A DNA stretch of 64,000 bases from Lacrimispora sphenoides JCM 1415 (GTDB lineage: Bacteria > Bacillota > Clostridia > Lachnospirales > Lachnospiraceae), in contig NZ_LT630003.1 in NCBI RefSeq assembly GCF_900105615.1, forward strand, positions 2,790,001 through 2,854,000, written 5' to 3'. The notes under the pieces were generated by a model. It was not told where the DNA came from and did no database searches. It worked only from the letters and a program-made list of their open reading frames with translations. The translations under genes and the position numbers were made by a program. Numbering within the stretch: position 1 is the stretch's first letter; each line of letters opens with the position of its first letter. This document shows, in pieces, positions 49,998 through 62,276 of this stretch.

Positions 49998-52373
49998 TTA
50001 AATCAAATCAGCTGCTACCCACATAAAGCGGCCCGGCGGCGTTGTCCACACTTCTCTATAGGTGGCAATATTGGCAGGCGGCCAATAAGGAAGGTCTTCA
50101 TTCCCTCTGGTCTGAACGCCTACCGGCATCTCTCCAACGGTTTCTCCAAGCAGAGCCGTATATTCCTGGCCGTAATGGTTTCCTTCCCCGTAGATCAGAG
50201 ACTGGCCGAAGGGGTTCTTTCCAAGGGTCCAGTAAAGCTGCTCTCTGGCAATTTCAATTAACTCCCCATCACTGAAATACGTTCCTATGATGGAAGCTGC
50301 TTTTCCCATAGACAGCTGGATCGCCGAATTTCCACGGTAAGAAAACCACACCGGGAATGTTCTTATATAGTATCCGTCTCCCAGATCAATGCCTTGCTTC
50401 AGCTGCTCCACGTAATTGACCCGTTCTCTTTCATAATCAACCTTTGGGTGCACCACATGGAAGGCTTCCTGGTCCTCTGCCTCGCTGATGTGATGGATTC
50501 CGGCCGGCAGCATGCCATAGGGAGCCGTATATTTCTGAAGGCCTTTTAAATACTCCCCATGGAGCTTTAAGCCTTCTTCCCACACAGTCTTATTTTCATG
50601 CTCTGCAAGCGCACCGCATACCTCTGCCAGTGCCATGGCAAAAACCTGATCCCTCGCCTGATGGGAGAAATGGACAATATGGGATTTGCTTTCATCCCTG
50701 CAGAAGAATCCCCTCATGGGCAGGTCATTCCTGGTTTCCTGGCAGGAGATCACCTTATCTGCATACTCGGCAGCCTTATCATAAAAATAGCTGTCTCCGG
50801 TAATTTTGTATATCCTGGCCGCAGCCCATGCTGCAACAGCATAGTATTGGGAAAGGCTGGAGCCTGCCGTATGTTCCAGTAGATGATACGGTCCTTCCAC
50901 CCCAACTTCCCGGAACCTCTCATCGGCAAAACGGAAGTCTTCTTTCGCTGCATCTACGCACTTCCATGCCAGCTCCCGGTCCAGTTCCTTAAAGGCTTCT
51001 CCGGCACCGGCTTCTACCGCAGCAAAAACAAAGTTTTCAAAGGACCTGTTGTGAACATCTGCTTCACAATCGTCCATATTTCCGATGAAGTTGTCGGTCC
51101 ACCTGCGGATGGCCGCATGGGATGCACGGTAGCCGTCTCCAAATCGCATACGAAGCACAAAGTCCAGTCCCCAGTTTGCTTCTTCCATCATTCTGCCAAA
51201 CAACATAGGATCAGAATCCTTCACCTTCCCTGCGGAAGCGATCATGGCATCTAAGATCTCTGCTGTCTGCATGGTCTGCTGGGAAACATCTGCTGCGTCG
51301 TGCCAGCCACCTGCATACACCAATTTCACCCCGTTGTGTTCTGCGATCACATCCTGATGGCAGGTTCCATGGCAGTTAGGAACCGGGTAGCCGCACCGCT
51401 CACAGTACATGAAATTGGTCAGCTTCCACAGAGTACTTTCCAGGACGTCATTTCCTATGATAAACCGCTCACTTACCGTATTTCCAAACCGGATTCTGTA
51501 TGTACCTTCGGTTTTTAAGTCCGAGAAATCCAATACCCTGAAGCTTCCCAGGTGGTTTTCCACCTTCTCAATCTGCCCACGGTATACCGCTACTTCCTCT
51601 AAACCGTCTTCTTCTTTCACGATTTCAAACTCTTTGGCTGAGGTATTGGCAATTGCTGTTTTTCTCCCGTCTGTAAAGTAACCGGTTGTAGAATATACTA
51701 CTTCCTCTTCCTCACACTGCCAACCATGAACGACTCCTGGTTTTACCTCCTGAAGCTGGATATCACAGAGTTCAAATCTCATGTCATCGCCAGTGCTCAC
51801 TTCCTTGCCATAACGGTGAATGTTAAATGAAATTTCCTCGATTGCATCATGGGCAATGGAATCGATCTCCCAGGTACAGGTATTCCATTCATTATTTTTC
51901 AGATTGATGGCATTAAAGCCTTCTCTCGAATAGACATCCGGTATCTTGGTTATCCCATTATTGACGAACCCTACACGCACGATTGGACTGTGAAGGCCGG
52001 GGCAAATAGGACGGATTTTAAACCATATCCGGTTTCCTTTTCCAAGTTCCAGCCCCTTCACATTCAGCCTTGCAATATAGCTTCCAAAGGTGGCATAAAG
52101 TCCTGCTGCCGCATCGTTTGCCCTGACTTCATTATCCGGCCAGTGGTCCGCCCGTGACTTTGTTTCCAGGCACAATATGTTCCCATCCTTTACCTGAACT
52201 TCTCCCTCACCGTCAAAGCTCCATGGCTCCAGGCTGGTTCCATCCCATAAATTTACAGAGGACAAAACCGGCTTTTTCAAATGATAGGTCTCCATGCTTT
52301 TATCGTACTCCGGTTTTAAAGGGTAATGTACGTATAATGACTCTATTAAATTTTTTTCAAATTGACGATCCAT
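49998..52373 (-). CDS. Glycoside hydrolase family 9 enzyme with N-terminal Ig-like domain, cytoplasmic
   Basis: 791 residues. Residues 1 to about 210 form a carbohydrate-binding-like beta-sandwich, about 215-310 a cellulase-type Ig-like domain (GTYRIRFGNTVSERFIIG), and the rest a GH9 alpha/alpha barrel. GGWHDAADVSQQT holds the catalytic base Asp pair; WTLGKNPFGQSLIYGEG and TTPPGRFMW are GH9 end motifs. There is no signal peptide, so it works on imported oligosaccharide. GH9 includes endoglucanases, beta-glucosidases and exo-beta-glucosaminidases; which one cannot be told. Last gene of the 49.9-61.4 kb operon. Confidence 0.9.
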   Translation of the reverse strand: MDRQFEKNLIESLYVHYPLKPEYDKSMETYHLKKPVLSSVNLWDGTSLEPWSFDGEGEVQVKDGNILCLETKSRADHWPDNEVRANDAAAGLYATFGSYIARLNVKGLELGKGNRIWFKIRPICPGLHSPIVRVGFVNNGITKIPDVYSREGFNAINLKNNEWNTCTWEIDSIAHDAIEEISFNIHRYGKEVSTGDDMRFELCDIQLQEVKPGVVHGWQCEEEEVVYSTTGYFTDGRKTAIANTSAKEFEIVKEEDGLEEVAVYRGQIEKVENHLGSFRVLDFSDLKTEGTYRIRFGNTVSERFIIGNDVLESTLWKLTNFMYCERCGYPVPNCHGTCHQDVIAEHNGVKLVYAGGWHDAADVSQQTMQTAEILDAMIASAGKVKDSDPMLFGRMMEEANWGLDFVLRMRFGDGYRASHAAIRRWTDNFIGNMDDCEADVHNRSFENFVFAAVEAGAGEAFKELDRELAWKCVDAAKEDFRFADERFREVGVEGPYHLLEHTAGSSLSQYYAVAAWAAARIYKITGDSYFYDKAAEYADKVISCQETRNDLPMRGFFCRDESKSHIVHFSHQARDQVFAMALAEVCGALAEHENKTVWEEGLKLHGEYLKGLQKYTAPYGMLPAGIHHISEAEDQEAFHVVHPKVDYERERVNYVEQLKQGIDLGDGYYIRTFPVWFSYRGNSAIQLSMGKAASIIGTYFSDGELIEIAREQLYWTLGKNPFGQSLIYGEGNHYGQEYTALLGETVGEMPVGVQTRGNEDLPYWPPANIATYREVWTTPPGRFMWVAADLI

Positions 52374-52393
52374 TTTTATCCCTCACCAAAAGA

Positions 52394-52855
52394 TTATTCT
52401 TCAATTTCAAATATAGCTTCCGTCTCAACAGGAATATTTCCAGGCAAAACGTTGACGCCTATGGCTGAACGGGCCGGTACATTCTCCTGGCCTAAAAGCT
52501 GTAACAGTAATTCACTTCCTCCATTAGCCACAGCCGGCTGCTCATAAAAGGTATCCGCACTTGCCACAAAGGTAAGAATTTTAATTGCACGCTTTACCCG
52601 GTTCAAATCCCCGATTTTATCCTGTAACACTGCAAGGACATTTAACATGGCATCTCTGGAAAAGGTTTTTCCTTCTTCTGTGGTAAATTCATTTCCAAGC
52701 TTTCCACGAATCCCTTCTTCTCCGATCACCGGCCCGCAGCCTGATATGTATACCAGGTTGTTTCCAAATTCCTGGCACGGGGCATATACTCCTCCTTTAG
52801 GCGGAGCTGCCGGGATCTCCAAATTAAGTTCTTTCAGTTTTTCATAAATATTCAT
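52394..52855 (-). CDS. RidA family enamine/imine deaminase
   Basis: 153 residues of YjgF/YER057c/UK114 fold: VYISGCGPVIG, RDAMLNVLAVLQDKIGDLNR, and the active-site Arg in PARSAIGVNVLPGNIPVETE. RidA proteins hydrolyse 2-aminoacrylate and related enamines released by PLP dehydratases. It sits three genes after a D-serine dehydratase-like gene's operon neighbour, separated from it only by the deacylase, which fits that role. Confidence 0.9.
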   Translation of the reverse strand: MNIYEKLKELNLEIPAAPPKGGVYAPCQEFGNNLVYISGCGPVIGEEGIRGKLGNEFTTEEGKTFSRDAMLNVLAVLQDKIGDLNRVKRAIKILTFVASADTFYEQPAVANGGSELLLQLLGQENVPARSAIGVNVLPGNIPVETEAIFEIEE

Positions 52856-52930
52856 GTCTGTTTCCTTCTTTCCTTTTTTTGCCCGGCTTCTCAGGGCATA
52901 TAAGTATGCCTGGAAGGGGGTTCCTTCTAT

Positions 52931-54541
52931 TTATTTAAAGCCCTTTCTTAACAGCTTCCCACTGGTGCGGTCCACAAGAATGCCGTCTGTCAGCACCTGT
53001 TTTCCTCCAACCAGCACCAGGTCCATGCCCGTACACGGGCCATGCTTTCCGGTGTAATCTGCATGATCTAAGAAACTCTCCGGCTGAAATACCAGCACAT
53101 CTGCCTGGTATCCGGGCCTTAAAAGCCCCCTGTCCTCCAGGCCCATCCGTTTTGCAGGCTGATAGGTCATCTTACTGATGGCCTGCTCCATGGACAGTAC
53201 CTTTCGCTTTATGACAAAATCATTTAAAAATCTGGCAGTCGTCCCGAGGAGGCGGGGATGGGCGTTCTTTCCGTCACCGCCGTACAGGGAGTCAGAAATC
53301 AATAAGGTAAAGGGGAGTCGGGCCACTGCATCCACATCCTGCTGGGACATGCTTAACACAATAATTCCCACTTTTCCATTTTCCTCCACAAGTAAGTCTG
53401 CCACAAGATCGGAAGGCTCTTCATATCCCAGCGTTTCCGCCAGCGCTCCGATTGTCTGTCCCTGCATAAATGCATTTTTCTCAAGGGTGACGGAGCTGAT
53501 GATGATCCGGTCCCAGCCAATGCTTTCCGACATATTATCCCAGCCCTGATGAACCTTATGTAACTCCGAGCGCAGCCTCTGCTTCCCTTTTGTGCCTGAT
53601 AAGCCTTTTACCAGAGCCTCGAAGGATTCCTCCATAATGGTTGGCGGAAGCAGGGACTGGAGGGTGGTAGAGCCGCCGTCATAGGGATAAAAATCTGCAG
53701 TAACATCCTGACCTGATTCCCTGGCCTGTTCAATCCTCTGAATCGCCTCAAATATCTTGCGGTTCCAGTTCTTGATTCCCGTTGATTTCAAATGGCTGAT
53801 ATTTAAGGGAACCCCTGCCTTTGCCGCCACATCGATCACTTCTTCCACCGACTCCACAAGGCTGTCTCCCTCTCCCCGGATATGGGTACAGAGAATGCCG
53901 CCATTTCCGGCAACTGCCTTTACAACTGCCGTAAGCTCTTCCCTGTTTGAATAGCATTCCGGCTGATACATGATTCCCAGCGTAATCCCAAAGGCTCCCT
54001 GGGCCAATGCATCTTTTACATACTCCTGAGCCTTTTTGAGTTCTTCTTCCGTATATTCCTTGCTTCCAAACCCCTTTAAAGCTACCTTGATGCTGTCTGA
54101 AGCCGCAAAAAATCCCATGTTGAGCGGTAGGTCTGCTGCTTCCAGGGCTTTCCTGTAATCTTCATAGGTTTCAAAGGCCAGATCATCAGGAAGTCTTCCG
54201 ATTACCGGCTCCAGGTAATCATATAATTCCTTCCTCCGCGAAGGAACCGATGGCACGGGTGCAAGTCCGCAGTTTCCCACAAAGGTGGTGGTGATCCCCT
54301 GGGCCAGCTCTATTTCCCCAAAATGAGGATTGGTGAAAGGTGCAATGTCGCAATGCCGGTGTATGTCAATGAAACCGGGAGTTACCGCCTTCCCGGAAGC
54401 ATCGATTACCCGGGCTCCTTCCTGTTCAATATCCGGGGCAATTTCAATAATTTTTTTCCCCTCTATCAGGATATCGCTCTGATACGGCAGTTCTCCGCTT
54501 CCGTCATAAATCAGTCCGTTTTTGATCAGAATATAACTCAT
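52931..54541 (-). CDS. N-acyl-D-amino-acid deacylase (D-aminoacylase)
   Basis: 536 residues of amidohydrolase fold: GFIDIHRHCD (metal His pair near 60-70), TTFVGNCGLAPVPS, HIRGEGDSLVESVEEV, ISHLKSTGIKNW, TADFYPYDGGSTTLQSLLPP, all typical of D-aminoacylases. It hydrolyses N-acyl-D-amino acids to D-amino acid plus carboxylate. ATG 54541 after GAGGGATGCTGAT, overlapping the preceding PLP-enzyme gene by 4 bp (translational coupling). Confidence 0.93.
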   Translation of the reverse strand: MSYILIKNGLIYDGSGELPYQSDILIEGKKIIEIAPDIEQEGARVIDASGKAVTPGFIDIHRHCDIAPFTNPHFGEIELAQGITTTFVGNCGLAPVPSVPSRRKELYDYLEPVIGRLPDDLAFETYEDYRKALEAADLPLNMGFFAASDSIKVALKGFGSKEYTEEELKKAQEYVKDALAQGAFGITLGIMYQPECYSNREELTAVVKAVAGNGGILCTHIRGEGDSLVESVEEVIDVAAKAGVPLNISHLKSTGIKNWNRKIFEAIQRIEQARESGQDVTADFYPYDGGSTTLQSLLPPTIMEESFEALVKGLSGTKGKQRLRSELHKVHQGWDNMSESIGWDRIIISSVTLEKNAFMQGQTIGALAETLGYEEPSDLVADLLVEENGKVGIIVLSMSQQDVDAVARLPFTLLISDSLYGGDGKNAHPRLLGTTARFLNDFVIKRKVLSMEQAISKMTYQPAKRMGLEDRGLLRPGYQADVLVFQPESFLDHADYTGKHGPCTGMDLVLVGGKQVLTDGILVDRTSGKLLRKGFK

Positions 54542-55659
54542 ATCAGCATCCCTCTTGCATCTACTTTTTGTTTTCTGAGAGAACCATTCTCCAGAATGTA
54601 AACAGAATTCTGCATATTGACAGCCGTACATACATGAATGGGGATCAGAGACAGAACCTGACCCACATGCAGCCCGGTCTCCCCATTAATGGCCGTGATG
54701 ATCCCATGTTCTTCATTCATCCGTGACAGCTTAAGATTGTCATCCCCTTCCACCACTGCATATCCGGGATAGTAAAACGGAGGCTGCCCTGGAACCACAT
54801 CCGTTGGAAAGCACTTGGTTCCTCCGTCCACCACGGCATATTCCGAATGCTGGCAGCTGACTACCGTCGCATAGAACCGGACAGCGATCTCACTGATATC
54901 GGCTACCTTTTCTTTGGTCAGCATAAAATCATCAAAAATATAGGTACCAGGGCGGATCTCATTTACCATTCCCGTCTGTGCAACTTTAATACCGGTGGGG
55001 GATGAACCAGCGCTGATGTCCTGTATCTCTACTCCCGCATCTTTCAACAGTCTGGCAGTTTCAGCCATCATGTTTCCTTCTTCCTCGGCAGCCAGCAAAT
55101 TGTCCTCCGTTGGCTTACCGGACAGGATCAGGCTCTTAAACGTAAATATACCTGTAAGGTTTAAATACTTCATCTGCTTAAGAGCAAGAGCCAGCTCCAC
55201 CGCCCGGTCCATGGGCACTCCCGTGCGTCCGGCTCCCGTATCGATCTCCATACGGACTTCCAGGATCATATCCTGATCAGAAGCTGCCTGATTCAGTGCC
55301 TTGGCACCTTCCAGACTGTCAATGGTCAAAATAAGCCTTTTGATCCTTTTTGCCAACGAAATCGCCCTCTGGATACGGAAATTTCCCACCATAGGATAAG
55401 CAATGAAAATATCCTCCATGCCTCCGTCAGCCATGACCTCAGCTTCGCTTACCTTGGCACAGGTGATCCCGCTTGCACCGGCCTTCATCTGCATTTCGGC
55501 AAATAATGGCATTTTATGGGTCTTGATATGAGGGCGCAGCAGGCAGCCGGCTTGAACCGCTGCTTCCTGCATCCTTCTTATATTTTTTTCCGCCAGATCC
55601 ACATCAATAACCAGACAGGGTGTCTCTAACTGTTGTATCTGTTCCTGTGTAAGTCCCAT
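54538..55659 (-). CDS. D-serine dehydratase / D-threonine aldolase-like PLP enzyme
   Basis: 373 residues, fold-type III (alanine-racemase-like barrel). The PLP lysine lies in RPHIKTHKMP near 43-52, and MEIDTGAGRTGVP and ISAGSSPTG follow the family pattern. Near the C-terminus PIHVCTAVNM gives a His-x-Cys metal pair; in characterised members His/Cys is found in zinc-dependent D-serine dehydratase and His/Asp in D-threonine aldolase, so dehydration of D-serine is favoured but not proved. GGGAGGAG ribosome site. It is coupled to the D-aminoacylase gene. Confidence 0.9.
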   Translation of the reverse strand: MGLTQEQIQQLETPCLVIDVDLAEKNIRRMQEAAVQAGCLLRPHIKTHKMPLFAEMQMKAGASGITCAKVSEAEVMADGGMEDIFIAYPMVGNFRIQRAISLAKRIKRLILTIDSLEGAKALNQAASDQDMILEVRMEIDTGAGRTGVPMDRAVELALALKQMKYLNLTGIFTFKSLILSGKPTEDNLLAAEEEGNMMAETARLLKDAGVEIQDISAGSSPTGIKVAQTGMVNEIRPGTYIFDDFMLTKEKVADISEIAVRFYATVVSCQHSEYAVVDGGTKCFPTDVVPGQPPFYYPGYAVVEGDDNLKLSRMNEEHGIITAINGETGLHVGQVLSLIPIHVCTAVNMQNSVYILENGSLRKQKVDARGMLI

Positions 55660-55676
55660 CTTTATCTCCTCCCTTC

Positions 55677-58193
55677 TCAGCTTTCATAACTGTCAGCCAC
55701 ACTCCGCACCACCAGGTTTTCTTTCACCAGGTCTGGGCTCATCTGGTCTTTAAAGTCTTTTTTGCTTACGTGAACCGTAACTCCTTCCGGCGAAGTAATA
55801 TCAAAAAAGTTATCAGAGAAAATAACGTCAAAATCTTTAAAGTAAAGCTCTACATACTGGCAGAAACAGGAAGCTTTCACCGTAATATCAAAGCTATGCT
55901 CTGACTCTGAAACCGAAACATCATAAGCCGGGTCATTATAATCAAAATGCTTTGGTTTTACAAACAGAACCGTCCGTTCCGTAAGAAGTTCTTCTCCCCT
56001 GTATAGCCGGAATACAGAAAAAACAGAAGAACAAAGAGCTTCATCATCGGTCCATAGGGAAAAATCTGTTTCCATGCACTTTAACACCGACAACGCAGGC
56101 AGTTCCCCTTCCCATGCCTCTTTCCACAACACCCGGAACTTATGATCCTTAAGGAGAATTTCCGCCCTGCACTGCTGTTCCTCCCTGGTATCATTATGAA
56201 CGTAATAGGAAACATGAGGAGAGAGTTCCTTCTCTTCACCGATGGAAATGGTAAAGGGCGCATAAAACCTGCGTGCTCCGTAATGGAGCGCTTTCCAGCG
56301 TCCATAATAGTCAATGCTCGCCCAGGAGGCTACCGGCCAGCAGTCATTAAGCTGCCAGTAGAGAGAACCCATGCATTGCCCCCTCTTTCTTCTCCAATGT
56401 TCTACGCCATACTCAATAGCCTTTAACTGAAGAATCTGAGAGATATATGCCAGAGAATCCGTATCCTTGGGATAAAGGAAGTAATCTGCTATGTAGTTTA
56501 AAATCTTCCCGTTAGCCGCCGGGTTTTTCTGGTGGGATTCCATGACCCTGCTGAAAATATTCCGGTCCTCCGGCAGGGTAAAGGAGGCTATGGTTTTGCT
56601 GTGTGGGAAGGATTGGAAACCGTATTCTGAGCAAAAGCTGAAATCTCCATATTCCGTAAACGGCTTTCCTGAATGCCAGACCTCCCAGTAATGCTGATCC
56701 CCCCGGTTGGTCGCGTTGGGATTGTCAAAGGCTCCTCCTGAGGACGGAGAAGATGGCCAGAAAAAGGAAGTGTCATCACAGTCCTTAATTGCCCGGGGAA
56801 GAATATATTCAAAGATTTTTGTATAGTCCGCTTTATATCTGGGGTGATGGCCTTTCAGCCTTGCCCACTCATCTGCCCAGCCCCATTCCATTTCATTATT
56901 TCCGCACCACAGGGCCAGACAAGCATGGTGCCTTAAACGGCGGACATTGTCCTTTGTTTCTTCTATAATATCCTCTTCAAAAGGTTCGTTTAATGCATAG
57001 ACATTGCATCCAAACATCAGGTCCTGCCAGATTAATATTCCTTCTTCATCGCATTTATCATAGAAATAGTCATCAGGGTAATAACCTCCGCCCCAGACTC
57101 TTAAGCAATTGAAGTTTGCGGCAGCACAGTCTTCGATCAGCCGTGCAGTCCTCTCCTTCGACACCCTTGTTAAAATATTATCTTCCGGGATATAATTCGC
57201 TCCCATGGTAAATATTTTTATTCCGTTCACCGTAATGGCAAACTCATTTCCGTATTCATTTTTATCCGTGCTGACGGTCACGGTCCGAAGGCCGATCCGG
57301 CACTCATAGGCATCATGACAGGTTCCCGCCTCATCAAGCAGGCGGATATTCACCCTATATAAGGGATGCTCTCCCAAACCGTTGGGCCACCATATCCGGG
57401 GCTGTGGTATGGTTTCTTCATACTGCCACTCTCCGCTGTTTCGGACTGTCCTGGATACAAGCCTGCCTTCCGGATCTGTTATTACAGTCTCGGTAAGCCA
57501 TGTCTGCCTGTTTTCCTGCCTTTCTTCAAAAGAGAGAGGCTGCTTTGTTTTTACTTCAAATTTCAGTCCGACTCTGCCACTGCTCTCATGCTCCTGCCTG
57601 ATATGGACATCCTGGATTTTTTCTTCGCTGAAATATTCGATGGCTATATCCCGGAAGATTCCCATATCCGGAAGCTGCGGGCCCCAGTCCCATCCAAACA
57701 TATAATGAGCCTTGCGAAGTGCCGCATTCCCGGGGATACATCCGGTGGAGGCATAGAAGATATCATTTCCCTCATCCTCTTTCCTTACAAAATTCAGCGG
57801 GGAGTGAAATAAAACCTCTATCCGGTTTTCTCCTTCCTGCAAAAATTCCTTTACCGGGAAACGGTAAGTTCTGTGCATATCCCTGGTTTCTGCAACCAGA
57901 CAGCCATTCATACGGATGGAGGCAATGGTATCAATTCCGGCGCAGACAAGTTCTGCATGGGAAAGTTCCAGATCCTCTCCTGACACCGTAAAGCTTCTTT
58001 TATAAAGATAATCATTTGCCATTAATTCCCGGACAGCATATTCATTGCATCTCCAATAAGGATCCTCGATCAGCTTATGTTTCAGCATATGGCTGATCAC
58101 CGTTCCAGGCACTTCTCCCGTGTATACGGCATTGTGGGAGGCTCCTTCGGAATGCCATTCCCAAACTCCATTTAATGATTGTGTTTTTCGCAT
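55677..58193 (-). CDS. Glycoside hydrolase family 2, beta-mannosidase-like
   Basis: 838 residues: jelly-roll domain (LNGVWEWHSEGASHNAVYTG; DPYWRCNEYAVRELMANDYL), Ig-like domain, then a TIM barrel with RVWGGGYYPDDYFYDKCDEE, acid/base WCGNNEMEWGW near 400 and nucleophile region FCSEYGFQSFP near 510, then C-terminal sandwiches. It resembles beta-mannosidases; exo-beta-glucosaminidases share this plan. No signal peptide, so cytoplasmic. Ribosome site GAGCAGGTG before the ATG. Confidence 0.92.
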   Translation of the reverse strand: MRKTQSLNGVWEWHSEGASHNAVYTGEVPGTVISHMLKHKLIEDPYWRCNEYAVRELMANDYLYKRSFTVSGEDLELSHAELVCAGIDTIASIRMNGCLVAETRDMHRTYRFPVKEFLQEGENRIEVLFHSPLNFVRKEDEGNDIFYASTGCIPGNAALRKAHYMFGWDWGPQLPDMGIFRDIAIEYFSEEKIQDVHIRQEHESSGRVGLKFEVKTKQPLSFEERQENRQTWLTETVITDPEGRLVSRTVRNSGEWQYEETIPQPRIWWPNGLGEHPLYRVNIRLLDEAGTCHDAYECRIGLRTVTVSTDKNEYGNEFAITVNGIKIFTMGANYIPEDNILTRVSKERTARLIEDCAAANFNCLRVWGGGYYPDDYFYDKCDEEGILIWQDLMFGCNVYALNEPFEEDIIEETKDNVRRLRHHACLALWCGNNEMEWGWADEWARLKGHHPRYKADYTKIFEYILPRAIKDCDDTSFFWPSSPSSGGAFDNPNATNRGDQHYWEVWHSGKPFTEYGDFSFCSEYGFQSFPHSKTIASFTLPEDRNIFSRVMESHQKNPAANGKILNYIADYFLYPKDTDSLAYISQILQLKAIEYGVEHWRRKRGQCMGSLYWQLNDCWPVASWASIDYYGRWKALHYGARRFYAPFTISIGEEKELSPHVSYYVHNDTREEQQCRAEILLKDHKFRVLWKEAWEGELPALSVLKCMETDFSLWTDDEALCSSVFSVFRLYRGEELLTERTVLFVKPKHFDYNDPAYDVSVSESEHSFDITVKASCFCQYVELYFKDFDVIFSDNFFDITSPEGVTVHVSKKDFKDQMSPDLVKENLVVRSVADSYES

Positions 58194-58208
58194 AGTTTCA
58201 CCTGCTCA

Positions 58209-59033
58209 TTACGCCTTTAAGCCACTGGTTGCAATTCCTTCCACAAAGTTTTTCTGGAAAACCGCAAAGCATACAATGACCGGAAGAACAAATACAACTG
58301 CTGCCGCCATCAGCCTTGACCAGTCTATGGAATACTCACTCATATACTGCTGGAGTCCCAGAGAAAGGGTATACATACCTGGCTTTGTTATAAAAATCAA
58401 AGGATACAAATAATCACTCCACGCATCCAAAAAGGCGTATATTCCTATCGTGGTCAAAACCGGTTTGCAAAGAGGAAGTGCAATTTTATAATAACGCTGG
58501 AATTCTGTAGCCCCGTCGATTTTCCCCGCCTCAATCAGGCTGTTCGGAATACCTGCAAAAAACTGCCGGACAATAACAATATAATATGCCTTTCCAAAAA
58601 ATGCAGGCAGGATTAAGGGAACGTATGTATTGGTAAGACCCAGCTTTGAATAAATCTTATATAATGGCACCATAGTGACCGTTATGGGTATCATCATCGT
58701 CGCCATGACCAGGCCTGAGATGATGTCTGCACCCTTCCATCTGATTTTCACCAGGGAATATGCAACCATAGGCGTGACCAGAAGCTGCCCTATGAGTGAA
58801 ATGGCCGTGATAAACACCGTATTTCCCATGTACTTAAAATATGGGATCGCTGCAAAGGCTGCCGGATAGTTTTCTTTCACCCATTCACGGGGAAACAGCC
58901 TTACCGGAATGGTGAACGCATCGTTGTTGGTTTTGAACGAAGTGAGCAGCATTACCATAAAGGGTGATATGAAAATCAAAGCCAGCACAGCAACCATAGC
59001 AAAAAATAAAACTTTGCTTATATATTTCTTCAT
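58209..59033 (-). CDS. Carbohydrate ABC transporter permease (MalG type)
   Basis: 274 residues, six membrane helices, EAA loop EAGKIDGATEFQRYYKIALP near 180. Follows its partner permease after 2 bp, with GGAGGTGAATAAGG as ribosome site. Part of the importer heading the D-amino-acid/glycan operon. Confidence 0.93.
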   Translation of the reverse strand: MKKYISKVLFFAMVAVLALIFISPFMVMLLTSFKTNNDAFTIPVRLFPREWVKENYPAAFAAIPYFKYMGNTVFITAISLIGQLLVTPMVAYSLVKIRWKGADIISGLVMATMMIPITVTMVPLYKIYSKLGLTNTYVPLILPAFFGKAYYIVIVRQFFAGIPNSLIEAGKIDGATEFQRYYKIALPLCKPVLTTIGIYAFLDAWSDYLYPLIFITKPGMYTLSLGLQQYMSEYSIDWSRLMAAAVVFVLPVIVCFAVFQKNFVEGIATSGLKA

Positions 59034-59035
59034 CC

Positions 59036-59959
59036 TTATTCACCTCCGGCATTTTCTGTTGCTTTTCTCGTTACCTTTGTCATAATGACCGTCAGAACAG
59101 CAACAACGACAAAGAGCAGCCACGCCATTGCCGAAGCCTTACCCATCTTTAAATAGGTAAATGCATTATGGAATACATACAGCGGATACATGAGAATGGA
59201 ATTCTCAGGGCCGCCGGCGGCACTTCCGCCTTTTACTCCGGCATTAGCAGTAATAATGATGTATACCTGCTGGAAATACTGGAATGCATTTATGGTGCTT
59301 AGTATGGCCTGATACACAAGAACATGAGCAATGCATGGTACCGTTATATAGAAAAATCTGGAAACCTTTCCGGCTCCGTCAATTTCGGCGGATTCATAAT
59401 AGCTTTTTGGTACAGACTGTAAAGCTGACATGCAGACCAGCATCATGGTTCCGGTGTTCCACGTACCCATGAGGACCAGCGCCCACTTGGTATAATGGGC
59501 ATCCATAAGCCATGCCGGCCCGCTGATTCCAAACCAGCTTAATACGTTATTGATGTAGCCGTAGGTAGGGTCAAACATCCAGATCCATACCATAGTCGCC
59601 GCAACCATTGGGATTACGGAAGGCAGGAAAAATGCTGTCCTGACAAACCCCCGCCCCTTAAAATCGGCGCATACGATGCTGGCCAGAAGCAGCGCTACGA
59701 ACAGGTTGATGGGCGTAGATACAAAGGCCATAAATAAGGTATTTCCCAAGCTCTTCCAAACAAGGGGATCACTAAAGATGTCTTTAAAATTTTCAAGTCC
59801 TACCCACTGCGGAGCTGTTACGGCATTGAACTTTGTAAGGCTGTAATACAGAGAGCTTATCAGTGGATATACACTAAAAGCCAGAAAGCCCAGAATCCAC
59901 GGAGATGAAAACAGCAGCCCATTTATAAAATCCCGCTGTGTCGCGTTTCGTCCCTTCAT
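59036..59959 (-). CDS. Carbohydrate ABC transporter permease (MalF type)
   Basis: 307 residues, six membrane helices, EAA loop ESAEIDGAGKVSRFFYITVP near 205. ATG 59959 is chosen because GAGGGGAAAAGGA stands directly before it; an ATG 21 nt upstream has none. Confidence 0.93.
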   Translation of the reverse strand: MKGRNATQRDFINGLLFSSPWILGFLAFSVYPLISSLYYSLTKFNAVTAPQWVGLENFKDIFSDPLVWKSLGNTLFMAFVSTPINLFVALLLASIVCADFKGRGFVRTAFFLPSVIPMVAATMVWIWMFDPTYGYINNVLSWFGISGPAWLMDAHYTKWALVLMGTWNTGTMMLVCMSALQSVPKSYYESAEIDGAGKVSRFFYITVPCIAHVLVYQAILSTINAFQYFQQVYIIITANAGVKGGSAAGGPENSILMYPLYVFHNAFTYLKMGKASAMAWLLFVVVAVLTVIMTKVTRKATENAGGE

Positions 59960-60040
59960 TCCTTTTCCCCTCTCAAACATGAAGATCAGGGCACTGCATA
60001 ATGCAGATTTCTGCCTGCAGCACCCTTTATTAGTGAATTG

Positions 60041-61384
60041 TTATTTTAAATTTGCGCTTTGTGCTGCAAGAGCTTTCAATGCATCTTCAGGAGTCTTTGA
60101 CCCTGAGTAGACGGTATCAAGTGCTGCATTGATCATGGATATGTATTCATCATAATCTGCCATTACCGGATACTGAATGCCTTTTTCCTGCTTCAGAGCG
60201 TCGATAAATTCTGTAAATCCAGGAACTGCCTTAATATCAGCATCATCGTATAAAGCTTTTACAGCAGGAAGATTTCCGGTTCCAAGATCAATGATCTTAG
60301 CGCCTTCCTGACTGCAGAGCCATTTTGTAAAATCCCAGGCTCCATCTTTATTCTTAGCCATTGCCGGTACTGCTACAGAGTCAGTCTCATAGCGGCTGGT
60401 TCCTCTCAGCTCCGGATTTGCCTGTGTACCGGGAATCAGGGTAATGCCGTAATCAACGGTGGAATTAAAATTCTTCATCATGGTCGGCAGCCAGGAGCCG
60501 TCAAGACGGAACAACTGCTTGCCCTGGAAGAACATATCCTGTTCTGTATAACGGTTTGTATTTGCTGTACCGATAAACCCATCAAGGGCTTTTCCGCCAA
60601 ACTGATTTCTGTATTTTATGTTCATATTAAGACTGTCTAAAATGCCTGCGTTATCAGGAGTGACATTAGAATCCTCATCCCACCATCTTCCGCCAAAGCC
60701 GTAGATCAGCTCCTGTCTGGCAGAGGCATATGGGAATAAGGGATATCCAAGCACCTCAATATTTCCGCTGCCATCTACCTTCGTAGCCTTTACTGCCATC
60801 TCATACATCTCTTCCATGGTTTTTGGCGGCTCGGTGTATCCGGCTTCCTTCAACAGTTCCTTGTTGTAATACATCTGAATGGTGTATGCATCAAGGGGAA
60901 GGGCATAAATGTTTCTGTCAATGGTATTTGCATTCATAGCCTGCTCTGAATAAATGGAGGAATCAAAGGATTCCTTGTCTGCATATGGCTGCAGATTTTC
61001 CAGCAAGCCATTCTTCTGATACTGCACCACGGTCTGGTTGCTTATTTTGATTACATCAGGTGATTCGTTGCTGCTCATAGCTACGATTACTTTCTGGGCA
61101 TCCGTAACGCTTAACCCTTCCACCTTATAATTGCTTTGGGAAGCATTGTACTCACTGATCGCCTTCTCATAGACAGCCGCTTCATCCCCTGTGTTGTTGT
61201 ACCAGAAAGTGATCACCTGTGCTTCCTTGTTTTCTGCCGGAGCAGATGTTTCCCCGCTGGTTGTCTCCCCGCCGGCCGCAGTCGTCTGTGCGGTGGTGGC
61301 CTGTGTCTGGGAACCGCTTCCGCAGCCTGTGACCGCCATTGCTGCCATACCTGCAGCCATGATAATACCAATTGCTCTTTTCAT
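60041..61384 (-). CDS. ABC transporter sugar-binding lipoprotein
   Basis: 447 residues. Lipobox VTGCGS near 19-23, a Thr/Gly/Ala linker, then a family-1 solute-binding fold (VITFWYNNTGDEAAVYEKAI; NIYALPLDAYTIQMYYNKEL; RLDGSWLPTMMKN). AAGGAGG before the ATG. First gene of the operon. No ATPase gene is present, so a shared MsmX-like ATPase is expected. Confidence 0.93.
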   Translation of the reverse strand: MKRAIGIIMAAGMAAMAVTGCGSGSQTQATTAQTTAAGGETTSGETSAPAENKEAQVITFWYNNTGDEAAVYEKAISEYNASQSNYKVEGLSVTDAQKVIVAMSSNESPDVIKISNQTVVQYQKNGLLENLQPYADKESFDSSIYSEQAMNANTIDRNIYALPLDAYTIQMYYNKELLKEAGYTEPPKTMEEMYEMAVKATKVDGSGNIEVLGYPLFPYASARQELIYGFGGRWWDEDSNVTPDNAGILDSLNMNIKYRNQFGGKALDGFIGTANTNRYTEQDMFFQGKQLFRLDGSWLPTMMKNFNSTVDYGITLIPGTQANPELRGTSRYETDSVAVPAMAKNKDGAWDFTKWLCSQEGAKIIDLGTGNLPAVKALYDDADIKAVPGFTEFIDALKQEKGIQYPVMADYDEYISMINAALDTVYSGSKTPEDALKALAAQSANLK

Positions 61385-61460
61385 AAAATACCTCCTTTTA
61401 AAAATATGGTTTGAACTTTTTGTTGATTTGCTTTCAACATTTTGTTTAACTCATAATCAA

Positions 61461-61489
61461 TATATACTATACTTCATGTGTTTTGTCAA
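61461..61489 (-). promoter_or_regulatory. Promoter of the sugar importer/D-amino-acid operon
   Basis: Minus strand TTGACA (61484-61489) and TATATA (61461-61466) with a 17-bp spacer. Confidence 0.75.
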
Positions 61490-61571
61490 CAATAATCAAG
61501 AGATTCTTTTTATTTTTTTGTTTGTTTTTTATAATGTTAGTTTTTTTATTCAACAAATACCGGATTATTGC

Positions 61572-61600
61572 TGGACTTTATCTCACATTTCATTTATAAT
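61572..61600 (+). promoter_or_regulatory. Promoter of the YheO-type regulator gene
   Basis: TGGACT (61572-61577) and TATAAT (61595-61600), 17-bp spacer. Confidence 0.6.
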
Positions 61601-61637
61601 TTACTTAGACATTTTGTTGAAAGGATAAAATATTACT

Positions 61638-62276
61638 ATGGGATATGTTTCTGATAACCTGAACCTGTTGTCTGACATTGCAAAATGCATTGCGATGCAA
61701 TTCGGAGAAAACTGTGAAGTGGTTTTACATGACCTTACCCTGCCATATGACCAGACAATCGTCGCAATCTGGAATGGACATGTGACCGGAAGAAAGGTCG
61801 GAGATGGAGGCACCAATGCCGGATTAGAGATTTTAAAGGGATCCGCATCACCGGAAGACCAGTACAGCTATGTTAACGCCACACCTACCGGCCGGATCTT
61901 ACGTTCTTCCAGCAAGTACTTCCGTGACGAATATGGAAAAGTGAACGGAAGCTTGTGCATTAATTTAGATATTACAGATATGATTAAATGTGAAAACACT
62001 TTACGGACCTTTACCTGTTCCAGCTCCCAGGCTCTTACCCAGACTCCTGAACTGTTTGTGGGAAATGTTGATGAACTGCTGGAAATCATGATGAAAGATG
62101 CCGTAAACATGACCGGAAAATCCGTGGGGAATTTGACAAAAGAAGAGAAGGTGTCTGTTGTCCACACCTTAGACGACAAGGGATTTTTCCTGATAAAAAA
62201 AGCGGCTGAAAAGCTGGCTGATTTTTTGGGATTATCCAGATACAGCATCTATAACTATCTGAACGAAAGCCATTAG
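61638..62276 (+). CDS. YheO/DauR-type transcriptional regulator (PAS-like plus HTH)
   Basis: 212 residues. Residues 8-115 are a YheO-type PAS-like domain (GENCEVVLHDLTLPYDQTIV; SSKYFRDEYGKVNGSLCINL). Residues 140-212 form a C-terminal HTH ending FLGLSRYSIYNYLNE. Known: DauR, of this family, controls D-arginine catabolism in Pseudomonas. Here the gene diverges from an operon with two D-amino-acid enzymes, so response to a D-amino acid or its product is a reasonable inference. The AAAGGA ribosome site is 12 nt before the ATG. Confidence 0.9.
   Translation: MGYVSDNLNLLSDIAKCIAMQFGENCEVVLHDLTLPYDQTIVAIWNGHVTGRKVGDGGTNAGLEILKGSASPEDQYSYVNATPTGRILRSSSKYFRDEYGKVNGSLCINLDITDMIKCENTLRTFTCSSSQALTQTPELFVGNVDELLEIMMKDAVNMTGKSVGNLTKEEKVSVVHTLDDKGFFLIKKAAEKLADFLGLSRYSIYNYLNESH

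Follow-up and report, generated by a model that had tools for sequence, protein, structure and literature searches.

The subject of this analysis is a nine-gene locus in a window of 64,000 nucleotides from Lacrimispora sphenoides JCM 1415 (NZ_LT630003.1, forward strand, positions 2,790,001 to 2,854,000); coordinates below are those of the window. Eight genes for a sugar importer, two glycosidases, an N-acyl deacylase, a pyridoxal 5'-phosphate (PLP) enzyme and a Rid-family protein are packed on the minus strand from position 61384 down to 49998, and a YheO/DauR-type regulator is encoded divergently. On balance, the operon probably serves to take up and break down a short glycan that carries at its reducing end an N-acyl-2-amino-2-deoxyaldonic acid of the N-acetylglucosaminate or -galactosaminate type. 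Judged from its sequence, it most likely resembles the proteobacterial ong pathway in its working but is no member of that group.

In the proposed scheme, the intact oligosaccharide would be imported by the binding lipoprotein and two permeases, with an ATPase that would be encoded elsewhere. In the cytoplasm, the glycoside hydrolase family 2 (GH2) enzyme would take off a non-reducing beta-mannosyl or related residue and the family 9 (GH9) enzyme a beta-glucosaminyl or glucosyl residue. The deacylase would strip the N-acyl group to give a 2-amino-2-deoxyaldonate, chemically a beta-hydroxy-D-alpha-amino acid. The PLP enzyme, whose reaction type is suggested by its motif, would dehydrate and deaminate this aldonate by way of an enamine/imine, and the Rid protein would aid hydrolysis to ammonia and a 2-keto-3-deoxyaldonate. 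A kinase of the 2-keto-3-deoxygluconate (KDG) type and a 2-keto-3-deoxy-6-phosphogluconate (KDPG) aldolase, for which genes are present elsewhere in the genome, would then yield pyruvate and glyceraldehyde-3-phosphate. The substrates and the flow between the steps are proposals; what is reported directly below are the genes present and their order in relatives, the classes of the enzymes, the state of their motifs, the tree and the counts of neighbours.

The deacylase, PLP enzyme and Rid protein are a real unit. The deacylase (52931 to 54541, minus strand; 536 residues; Amidohydro_3) is of D-aminoacylase type and forms a subfamily of its own in the tree. Residues C91, H220, H250 and D417, invariant in 21 of 21 aligned sequences, make up a subtype V amidohydrolase site (Cys/His/His metal ligands and catalytic Asp). 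This metal site and the catalytic Asp are common to the D-aminoacylases AfDam (1m7j) and BbDam (3gip), whereas the window protein is ∼50 residues longer, is matched by 1m7j in two pieces and differs in its pocket residues. One full-length match to the deacylase was found in the strain's own genome, a single contig of 5.30 Mb.

The fold-III PLP enzyme (54538 to 55659, minus strand; Ala_racemase_N and D-ser_dehydrat domains) carries the Schiff-base lysine (K46) and an H-x-C motif (H342-x-C344), both present in all 49 aligned sequences, among them three OngC proteins; the alignment took in proteins longer than 320 residues, which excluded for instance the truncated protein of L035 and the split ones of L041 and L052. 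D-threonine aldolases 7dib and 4v15 have H-x-D instead of H-x-C. The protein had been annotated initially as D-serine dehydratase/D-threonine aldolase-like; the motif supports an enzyme of dehydratase type and argues against the aldolase half of that description. In L041 (1224-2339) the PLP gene is broken into two open frames and adjoins a deacylase and a Rid gene that look intact. The window Rid protein (52394 to 52855, minus strand) was assigned by domain match (YjgF_endoribonc and Ribonuc_L-PSP, above cut-off) as a putative enamine/imine deaminase.

Neighbourhoods were compared for the best 80 of at least 530 confirmed deacylase loci, with flanks of up to 10 kb, together with further relatives (loci are given L numbers). 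The sample leans to close relatives and many contigs are short, so absences near the deacylase are to be read as lower bounds. Loci with a best deacylase alignment below 430 residues were dropped, and a tree of 101 deacylases was built by a quick method with SH-aLRT support only. It contained a window clade of 36 members (support 95), a sister clade of 19 (support 86, not starred) and a next clade of 35 (support 99). Neighbours were counted as relatives of named reference proteins in 92 loci of four clades, omitting L066, L122-L124, L130 and three OngB rows; for the comparison with the other fold-III PLP type, one reference (a PLP gene of L045) was excluded. Genes for a window-type Rid and a fold-III PLP enzyme accompany the deacylase, at distances of up to ∼10 kb, in 22 of the 35 window-clade loci and 14 of the 19 sister-clade loci but, with thresholds unchanged, in 1 of the 35 next-clade loci, which bears out the earlier claim that the three belong together. 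Separately, at L155 and L156 the PLP gene (58-60% identity) adjoins Rid with no deacylase nearby; L155 belongs to a genome (G043) that has a deacylase on a separate contig (L121), with flanks that contain no PLP or Rid relatives.

The aldonate was suggested by what else accompanies this deacylase family. A pair of genes for a kinase of the KDG or 2-keto-3-deoxygalactonate (KDGal) type and a KDPG aldolase was located within ∼10 kb in 6 of 19 sister-clade and 2 of 35 next-clade loci, and the kinase and aldolase families were confirmed by profile in L053 and L079. Locus L053, of the sister clade, is a single directon of deacylase, Rid, PLP, YheO, DGOK and KDPG aldolase. KDPG aldolase occurs twice in the strain's own 5.3 Mb genome, and at that density chance proximity would be ∼1% per locus. 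In that genome a KDPG aldolase above cut-off adjoins two PfkB kinases that match KDG/KDGal kinases best, at scores below cut-off. A DHDPS-family gene at L044 was considered as a KDG aldolase, but the match was weak (29 bits) and was not used.

Five next-clade loci (L079, L084, L089, L091, L096) have a DgaE-like PLP protein and a different Rid beside the deacylase; the proteins of L079 and L089, the two compared by profile, match the DgaE family best, at 191 and 186 bits, below its cut-off of 385. An SSF symporter is encoded in three of the five (L079, L091, L096) and in 6 of the 19 sister-clade loci. DgaE acts on glucosaminate-6-phosphate, according to the available sections of PMC9529869. It likewise eliminates ammonia in a PLP-dependent reaction, from a 2-amino-2-deoxyaldonate to a 2-keto-3-deoxy acid; the DgaE system differs from the window operon in its PLP family, in its phosphorylated substrate, and in having neither an N-acyl group nor oligosaccharide import. 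Because two fold-III PLP types, a DgaE-like one and KDG enzymes all accompany one deacylase family, a 2-amino-2-deoxyaldonate is suggested as the common intermediate. The link to KDG seen in the sister clade would, by analogy, carry over to the window clade. The DgaE-like loci, from Treponema and Clostridia, look like another gene set of amino-aldonate type.

A precedent for the scheme is provided by the ong cluster of Pseudoalteromonas prydzensis ACAM 620, which degrades C1-oxidised chito-oligosaccharides, as given in the available sections of its description (PMC9537276). There, N-acetylglucosaminate (GlcNAc1A) is released by OngA (GH20) and deacetylated by OngB, which has the D-aminoacylase fold; the fold-III PLP enzyme OngC converts glucosaminate to KDG and ammonia, and KdgK phosphorylates KDG; OngD (RidA) is essential, its role being given as unknown (PMC9537276). 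The same sections report ong clusters in Gammaproteobacteria and one betaproteobacterium, where a cluster counted as a member if four or more of its genes had ong homologues at more than 30% identity. The trio that had suggested D-serine is thus one already described for the breakdown of an amino sugar acid. The initial remark that no system with such a combination was known is not supported, since ong already joins a D-aminoacylase-type deacetylase, a D-amino-acid-deaminase-type PLP enzyme, a RidA protein and a glycosidase.

The comparison covered three fetched ong clusters, L127 (P. shioyasakiensis), L128 and L129, the type strain lying outside it. In both systems a D-aminoacylase-fold deacylase, a fold-III PLP deaminase with H-x-C, a Rid protein and a glycosidase are encoded together, and a KDG-type kinase and KDPG aldolase occur somewhere in the genome. 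The window operon uses an ABC importer with signal-less GH2 and GH9 enzymes where ong uses TonB receptors, an SSS symporter and a periplasmic GH20; its regulator is of YheO type rather than MurR type, a KDG-type kinase lies outside the operon rather than inside, and its relatives are found in Firmicutes and Spirochaetes rather than in proteobacteria. Pfam searches of the window operon gave no GH20 OngA, KdgK, MurR/RpiR regulator or SSS transporter. No description of this set was found in open PMC text, subscription papers being outside the scope of the search; the ong survey would miss it because of the 30% identity criterion.

Several findings weigh against an N-acyl aldonate as the substrate. 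The main gap is that neither a KDG kinase nor a KDPG aldolase was found within ∼10 kb in any of the 35 window-clade loci, which makes the link through the sister clade indirect. Neither LPMO_10, the lytic polysaccharide monooxygenase (LPMO) domain, nor GH20 was found in the strain's own genome, which leaves the acids without an evident source there. Against OngB, the window deacylase shows 27-30% identity with the L127 protein, over two pieces, and at most 37% with the L128 protein, over a stretch of 111 residues; the PLP enzyme is 22-29% identical to the three OngC proteins, and the Rid protein gave no BLAST match to OngD of the fetched clusters; fewer than four window genes matched L127-L129 at more than 30% identity. 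The specificity of OngB is ascribed to Ser292, the small Ala193 and Ala256, and Gln298, which contacts the C5 hydroxyl, and OngB was inactive on all N-acetyl-D-amino acids tried (available sections of PMC12017989). In the window protein these are changed, S292 to T, A193 to M (M191) and A256 to T (T254), the equivalence of M191 and T254 having been read by hand through AfDam; at the Gln298 position the window deacylase has a longer insertion and is unalignable. Thr at position 292 is a conserved residue of D-aminoacylases in the same account (PMC12017989). OngC, moreover, takes D-serine and D-threonine as well (PMC9537276, in its available sections), and loci in which the trio and the glycosidases occur apart, described below, count on the same side. 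The tree and these residues argue against the deacylase as an OngB orthologue, and the low identity and lost OngB residues together imply that the window set is not a transferred ong cluster.

Much of this would suit a ligand that bears N-acyl-D-serine or N-acyl-D-threonine, for example amide-linked to a uronic acid: GH2 and GH9 would strip the sugars, the D-amino acid would be freed, and the PLP enzyme would convert it to pyruvate or 2-ketobutyrate with no further genes needed. Amino-acid-amidated uronic acids exist in some bacterial polysaccharides. With the uronic acid as acyl group, the amide-bound D-amino acid could be released by the deacylase alone, and such an amide would fit this enzyme too; the D-ser_dehydrat domain, the H-x-C motif, the activity of OngC on both amino acids, T292 and the missing KDG enzymes of the window clade all agree with it. 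For D-serine, however, the 2-keto-3-deoxyaldonate kinases and aldolases of the sister clade and the distant DgaE-like proteins would be superfluous, the operon holds no uronidase by Pfam, and the extra genes of glycosidase-bearing relatives are of amino-sugar type. This ligand is considered unlikely, if a serious contender. D-serine as the freed amino acid, suggested initially, is less favoured since relatives pair the deacylase with 2-keto-3-deoxyaldonate enzymes or DgaE-like proteins; free D-serine is probably not the substrate of the trio.

The importer and glycosidases are consistent with a beta-mannosyl- or beta-glucosaminyl-capped form of the N-acyl-aldonate glycan proposed above. The substrate-binding lipoprotein of a CUT1-type sugar ATP-binding cassette (ABC) importer (60041 to 61384, minus strand; SBP_bac_8/SBP_bac_1 above cut-off) has as its nearest solved relative 4r9f 'MBP1' (E 3.8e-26), which we take to be the mannan-binding protein CpMnBP1. 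Tight mannobiose binding by CpMnBP1 is reported in the available sections of PMC4792470. Both permeases (59036 to 59980 and 58209 to 59033, minus strand) carry BPD_transp_1, with UgpA/MalF and GlcU/UgpE/MalG, respectively, as top curated matches, below cut-off.

The GH2 enzyme (55677 to 58193, minus strand) has GH2 and mannosidase domains by Pfam and is of the beta-mannosidase-type exo-glycosidase class. Residues 25-822 align with beta-mannosidase 6bye at 479 bits, and the alignment to beta-mannosidases runs almost end to end. A 2025 GH2 survey marks subfamily GH2_13 by a Trp that replaces the loop-2 His and by an intact NE motif (PMC12243196, available sections). The window protein has the NE motif (NNE), and the Trp in RVWGGG was taken as the other mark, a position assigned by us since the survey section names no residue number. 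The enzyme therefore looks, by sequence, like a GH2_13 beta-mannosidase, which refines the GH2 call of the initial annotation; the NE motif and Trp speak against a CsxA-type exo-glucosaminidase.

The GH9 enzyme (49998 to 52373, minus strand) keeps its catalytic Asp and Glu as D359 and E774, which are unchanged in all 42 aligned sequences. A structure model built with 42 sequences (pLDDT 90.7) has a beta-sandwich of ∼220 residues (1-220; window 51714-52373) ahead of CelD_N. A first model (10 sequences, pLDDT 67) was superseded; exo-glucosaminidases came top by Z there too. The highest Z scores, 32.3-33.0 over 502-503 residues, were to the GH9 exo-beta-D-glucosaminidases PBPRA0520, VC0615 and VP2484; cellulases reached Z up to 30.4 over fewer residues, a modest margin, and when ranked by Foldseek E-value the cellobiohydrolase CbhA was second for the better model. 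The window enzyme differs from the three exo-glucosaminidases in its low identity (16-20%), its additional N-terminal beta-sandwich, and its GGWHDAAD in place of GGWYDASGD. VC0615 cleaves beta-glucosides too (PMC6096475, available sections). Given the modest Z margin, the DAAD versus DASGD motif and the beta-glucosidase activity of VC0615, the modelled GH9 is a putative exo-glycosidase that may act as a beta-glucosaminidase or as a glucosidase. No signal peptide was visible by eye on GH2 or GH9, so glycosidic cleavage is probably cytoplasmic; this supports the earlier suggestion of an imported oligosaccharide cut by these glycosidases.

Relatives of GH2 or GH9 accompany the deacylase in 14 of 35 window-clade, 2 of 19 sister-clade and none of 35 next-clade loci, and in two of the three loci of the deep L158-L160 branch (the L159 contig ends early). 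Whether homologous loci lack the D-amino-acid genes as a rule had been named at the outset as a check; mostly they keep them, 13 of the 14 window-clade loci with GH2 or GH9 carrying Rid and PLP too, with L071 and L073 as contrary cases. Either glycosidase is dispensable: L042 has GH2 without GH9, and L051 and L148 have GH9 without GH2. At L035 and L043 the other fold-III PLP type stands beside a homologous run of binding protein, permeases, GH2, deacylase, Rid and GH9, and the two types therefore appear interchangeable.

The contrary loci bear on a second alternative, in which two unrelated functions are co-expressed without forming one pathway: the importer, GH2 and GH9 would serve glycan use, and the other enzymes would remove N-acyl-D-amino acids or reactive enamines encountered in that habitat. 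The glycosidase operons of L071 (Hungatella hathewayi) and L073, 60-85% identical to that of the window, lack PLP and deacylase genes inside; PLP, deacylase and Rid stand alone in L061, L065, L094 and L131; and at L149 (5186-13470) a GH9 relative (45%) has a binding protein, permeases and relatives of BadF and SIS around it yet lacks a deacylase, showing that the GH9/kinase/isomerase part occurs alone too. Yet Rid remains with GH2 and GH9 in L071 and L073, with a sister-clade deacylase upstream that is accompanied by the other PLP type in L071 (the L073 contig ends there), an arrangement that can be read as the same set spread over two operons or as two independent parts. The two parts also meet at two places in the tree, in the window clade and in the L158-L160 branch, with differing gene orders, and the PLP type is swapped within the run in L035 and L043. 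We think such a pairing of unrelated functions distinctly unlikely.

Further genes of the glycosidase-bearing relatives point to amino sugars. SIS proteins are encoded in L035, L037, L043, L051 and L119, and BadF or ROK kinases also occur among these relatives; a glucosamine-6-phosphate deaminase and a hexosamine kinase are likely, the SIS, BadF and ROK matches being below NCBIfam cut-offs. At L158, GH4, BadF and GH20 genes follow the deacylase; genes of 377 and 266 residues there had been guessed from length to be NagA and NagB, but Pfam gave GGDEF and esterase. At L154 (16468-18130), NanE (above cut-off) and a ROK kinase lie directly behind a YheO-type regulator, adjoining an operon of GH2, PLP, deacylase, Rid and GH3. 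One might speculate that the residue freed at L154 is N-acetylmannosamine (ManNAc) and that its GH2 is a beta-N-acetylmannosaminidase.

Amino-sugar genes would also fit an operon that salvaged muropeptides, the deacylase freeing D-glutamate from N-acyl-D-glutamate in peptidoglycan fragments carried with amino sugars. The top curated match of the deacylase is PRK09061 ("amidohydrolase family protein"; 192 bits, below the cut-off of 340), which is presumably D-glutamate deacylase. D-glutamate has no beta-hydroxyl, however, and a PLP dehydratase and Rid would be purposeless; the operon holds no peptidase or MurNAc etherase domain by Pfam, and a beta-mannosidase-type GH2 is ill-suited to peptidoglycan. 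Such a role is very improbable.

All nine genes were found at the coordinates and in the order noted initially, with family matches above Pfam cut-off, and the packing and divergent regulator were as described. From GH9 to the end of the binding-protein gene the gaps are 20, 75, -4, 17, 15, 2 and 60 bp, followed by 253 bp to the regulator, and from this spacing the eight-gene run is predicted to be a single transcript. The 4-bp overlap of deacylase and PLP genes depends on taking 54541 as the deacylase start; the open reading frame called mechanically begins at 54631. No terminator-like site was seen on the operon strand in any gap, in a scan that had no power (12 sites vs 12.1 expected), and a promoter scan was uninformative (25 sites vs 19.7 expected, sd 4.2).

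The deacylase is present in 6 of 25 genus genomes including the strain's own. The other five (of 24) have all nine genes in identical order, which places the block beyond chance. In six fetched genomes out of the 19 without a deacylase, none of the nine genes gave a tblastn match in a 16-18 kb stretch, and the distance between the SMC-like and uvrA genes on either side is 1.2-4.2 kb. In an even draw of 392 genomes of the order, GH9 of this type was found in 6 (E 1e-100) and the PLP enzyme of this type in 9 (E 1e-90), own genome included in both, and the system is therefore rare in the order.

The regulator (61638 to 62276, plus strand) has PAS_6 and HTH_22 domains by Pfam. The 253-bp divergent region (61385 to 61637), a putative operator, contains five TGTTGA/TCAACA half-sites against 0.13 expected from base shuffling, a contrast that overstates the case since the motif was picked after inspection. 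The five sister genomes retain four to five copies, and L073 (regulator 78% identical) has three. Single copies in L071 (regulator 77%) and L148 (41%) are what shuffling gives likewise (p 0.17 and 0.13), and there are none in L035, L036, L037, L042, L051 and L154 (regulators 37-44%). The YheO-type protein probably senses a pathway intermediate and binds these half-sites.

If the proposed substrate is right, oxidised amino-sugar glycans, hitherto tied to LPMO-driven chitin decay by proteobacteria, also feed anaerobes, here without an LPMO_10 gene. It would hint at the true function of many Lachnospiraceae and treponeme proteins that bear the annotation 'N-acyl-D-amino-acid deacylase' or 'D-serine dehydratase', place Rid proteins of the OngD type in a second genetic context, and narrow the compounds worth assaying to a few. 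A broader proposal is put forward tentatively and with considerable doubt: that anaerobic Firmicutes and Spirochaetes of the gut, rumen and similar habitats live in part on N-acetyl-hexosaminic-acid oligosaccharides capped by beta-mannosyl or beta-hexosaminyl residues, unrecognised as a nutrient, imported whole and degraded in the cytoplasm, the oxidised end not being made by the consumers themselves. Within that proposal, candidate sources would be, for example, an oxidised N-glycan core or a bacterial cell-wall fragment of ManNAc-GlcNAc type.

Two minor observations concern other deacylase loci. The PLP-deacylase-Rid set of L131 (OY725852) comes from a circular record of 23.9 kb, which bears the label of a Subdoligranulum variabile plasmid. 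Relatives of YgeY-type hydrolases occur at the distant loci L088 (above NCBIfam cut-off), L106, L109, L111, L122, L123 and L124, and other branches of the deacylase may serve a different, selenium-linked system.

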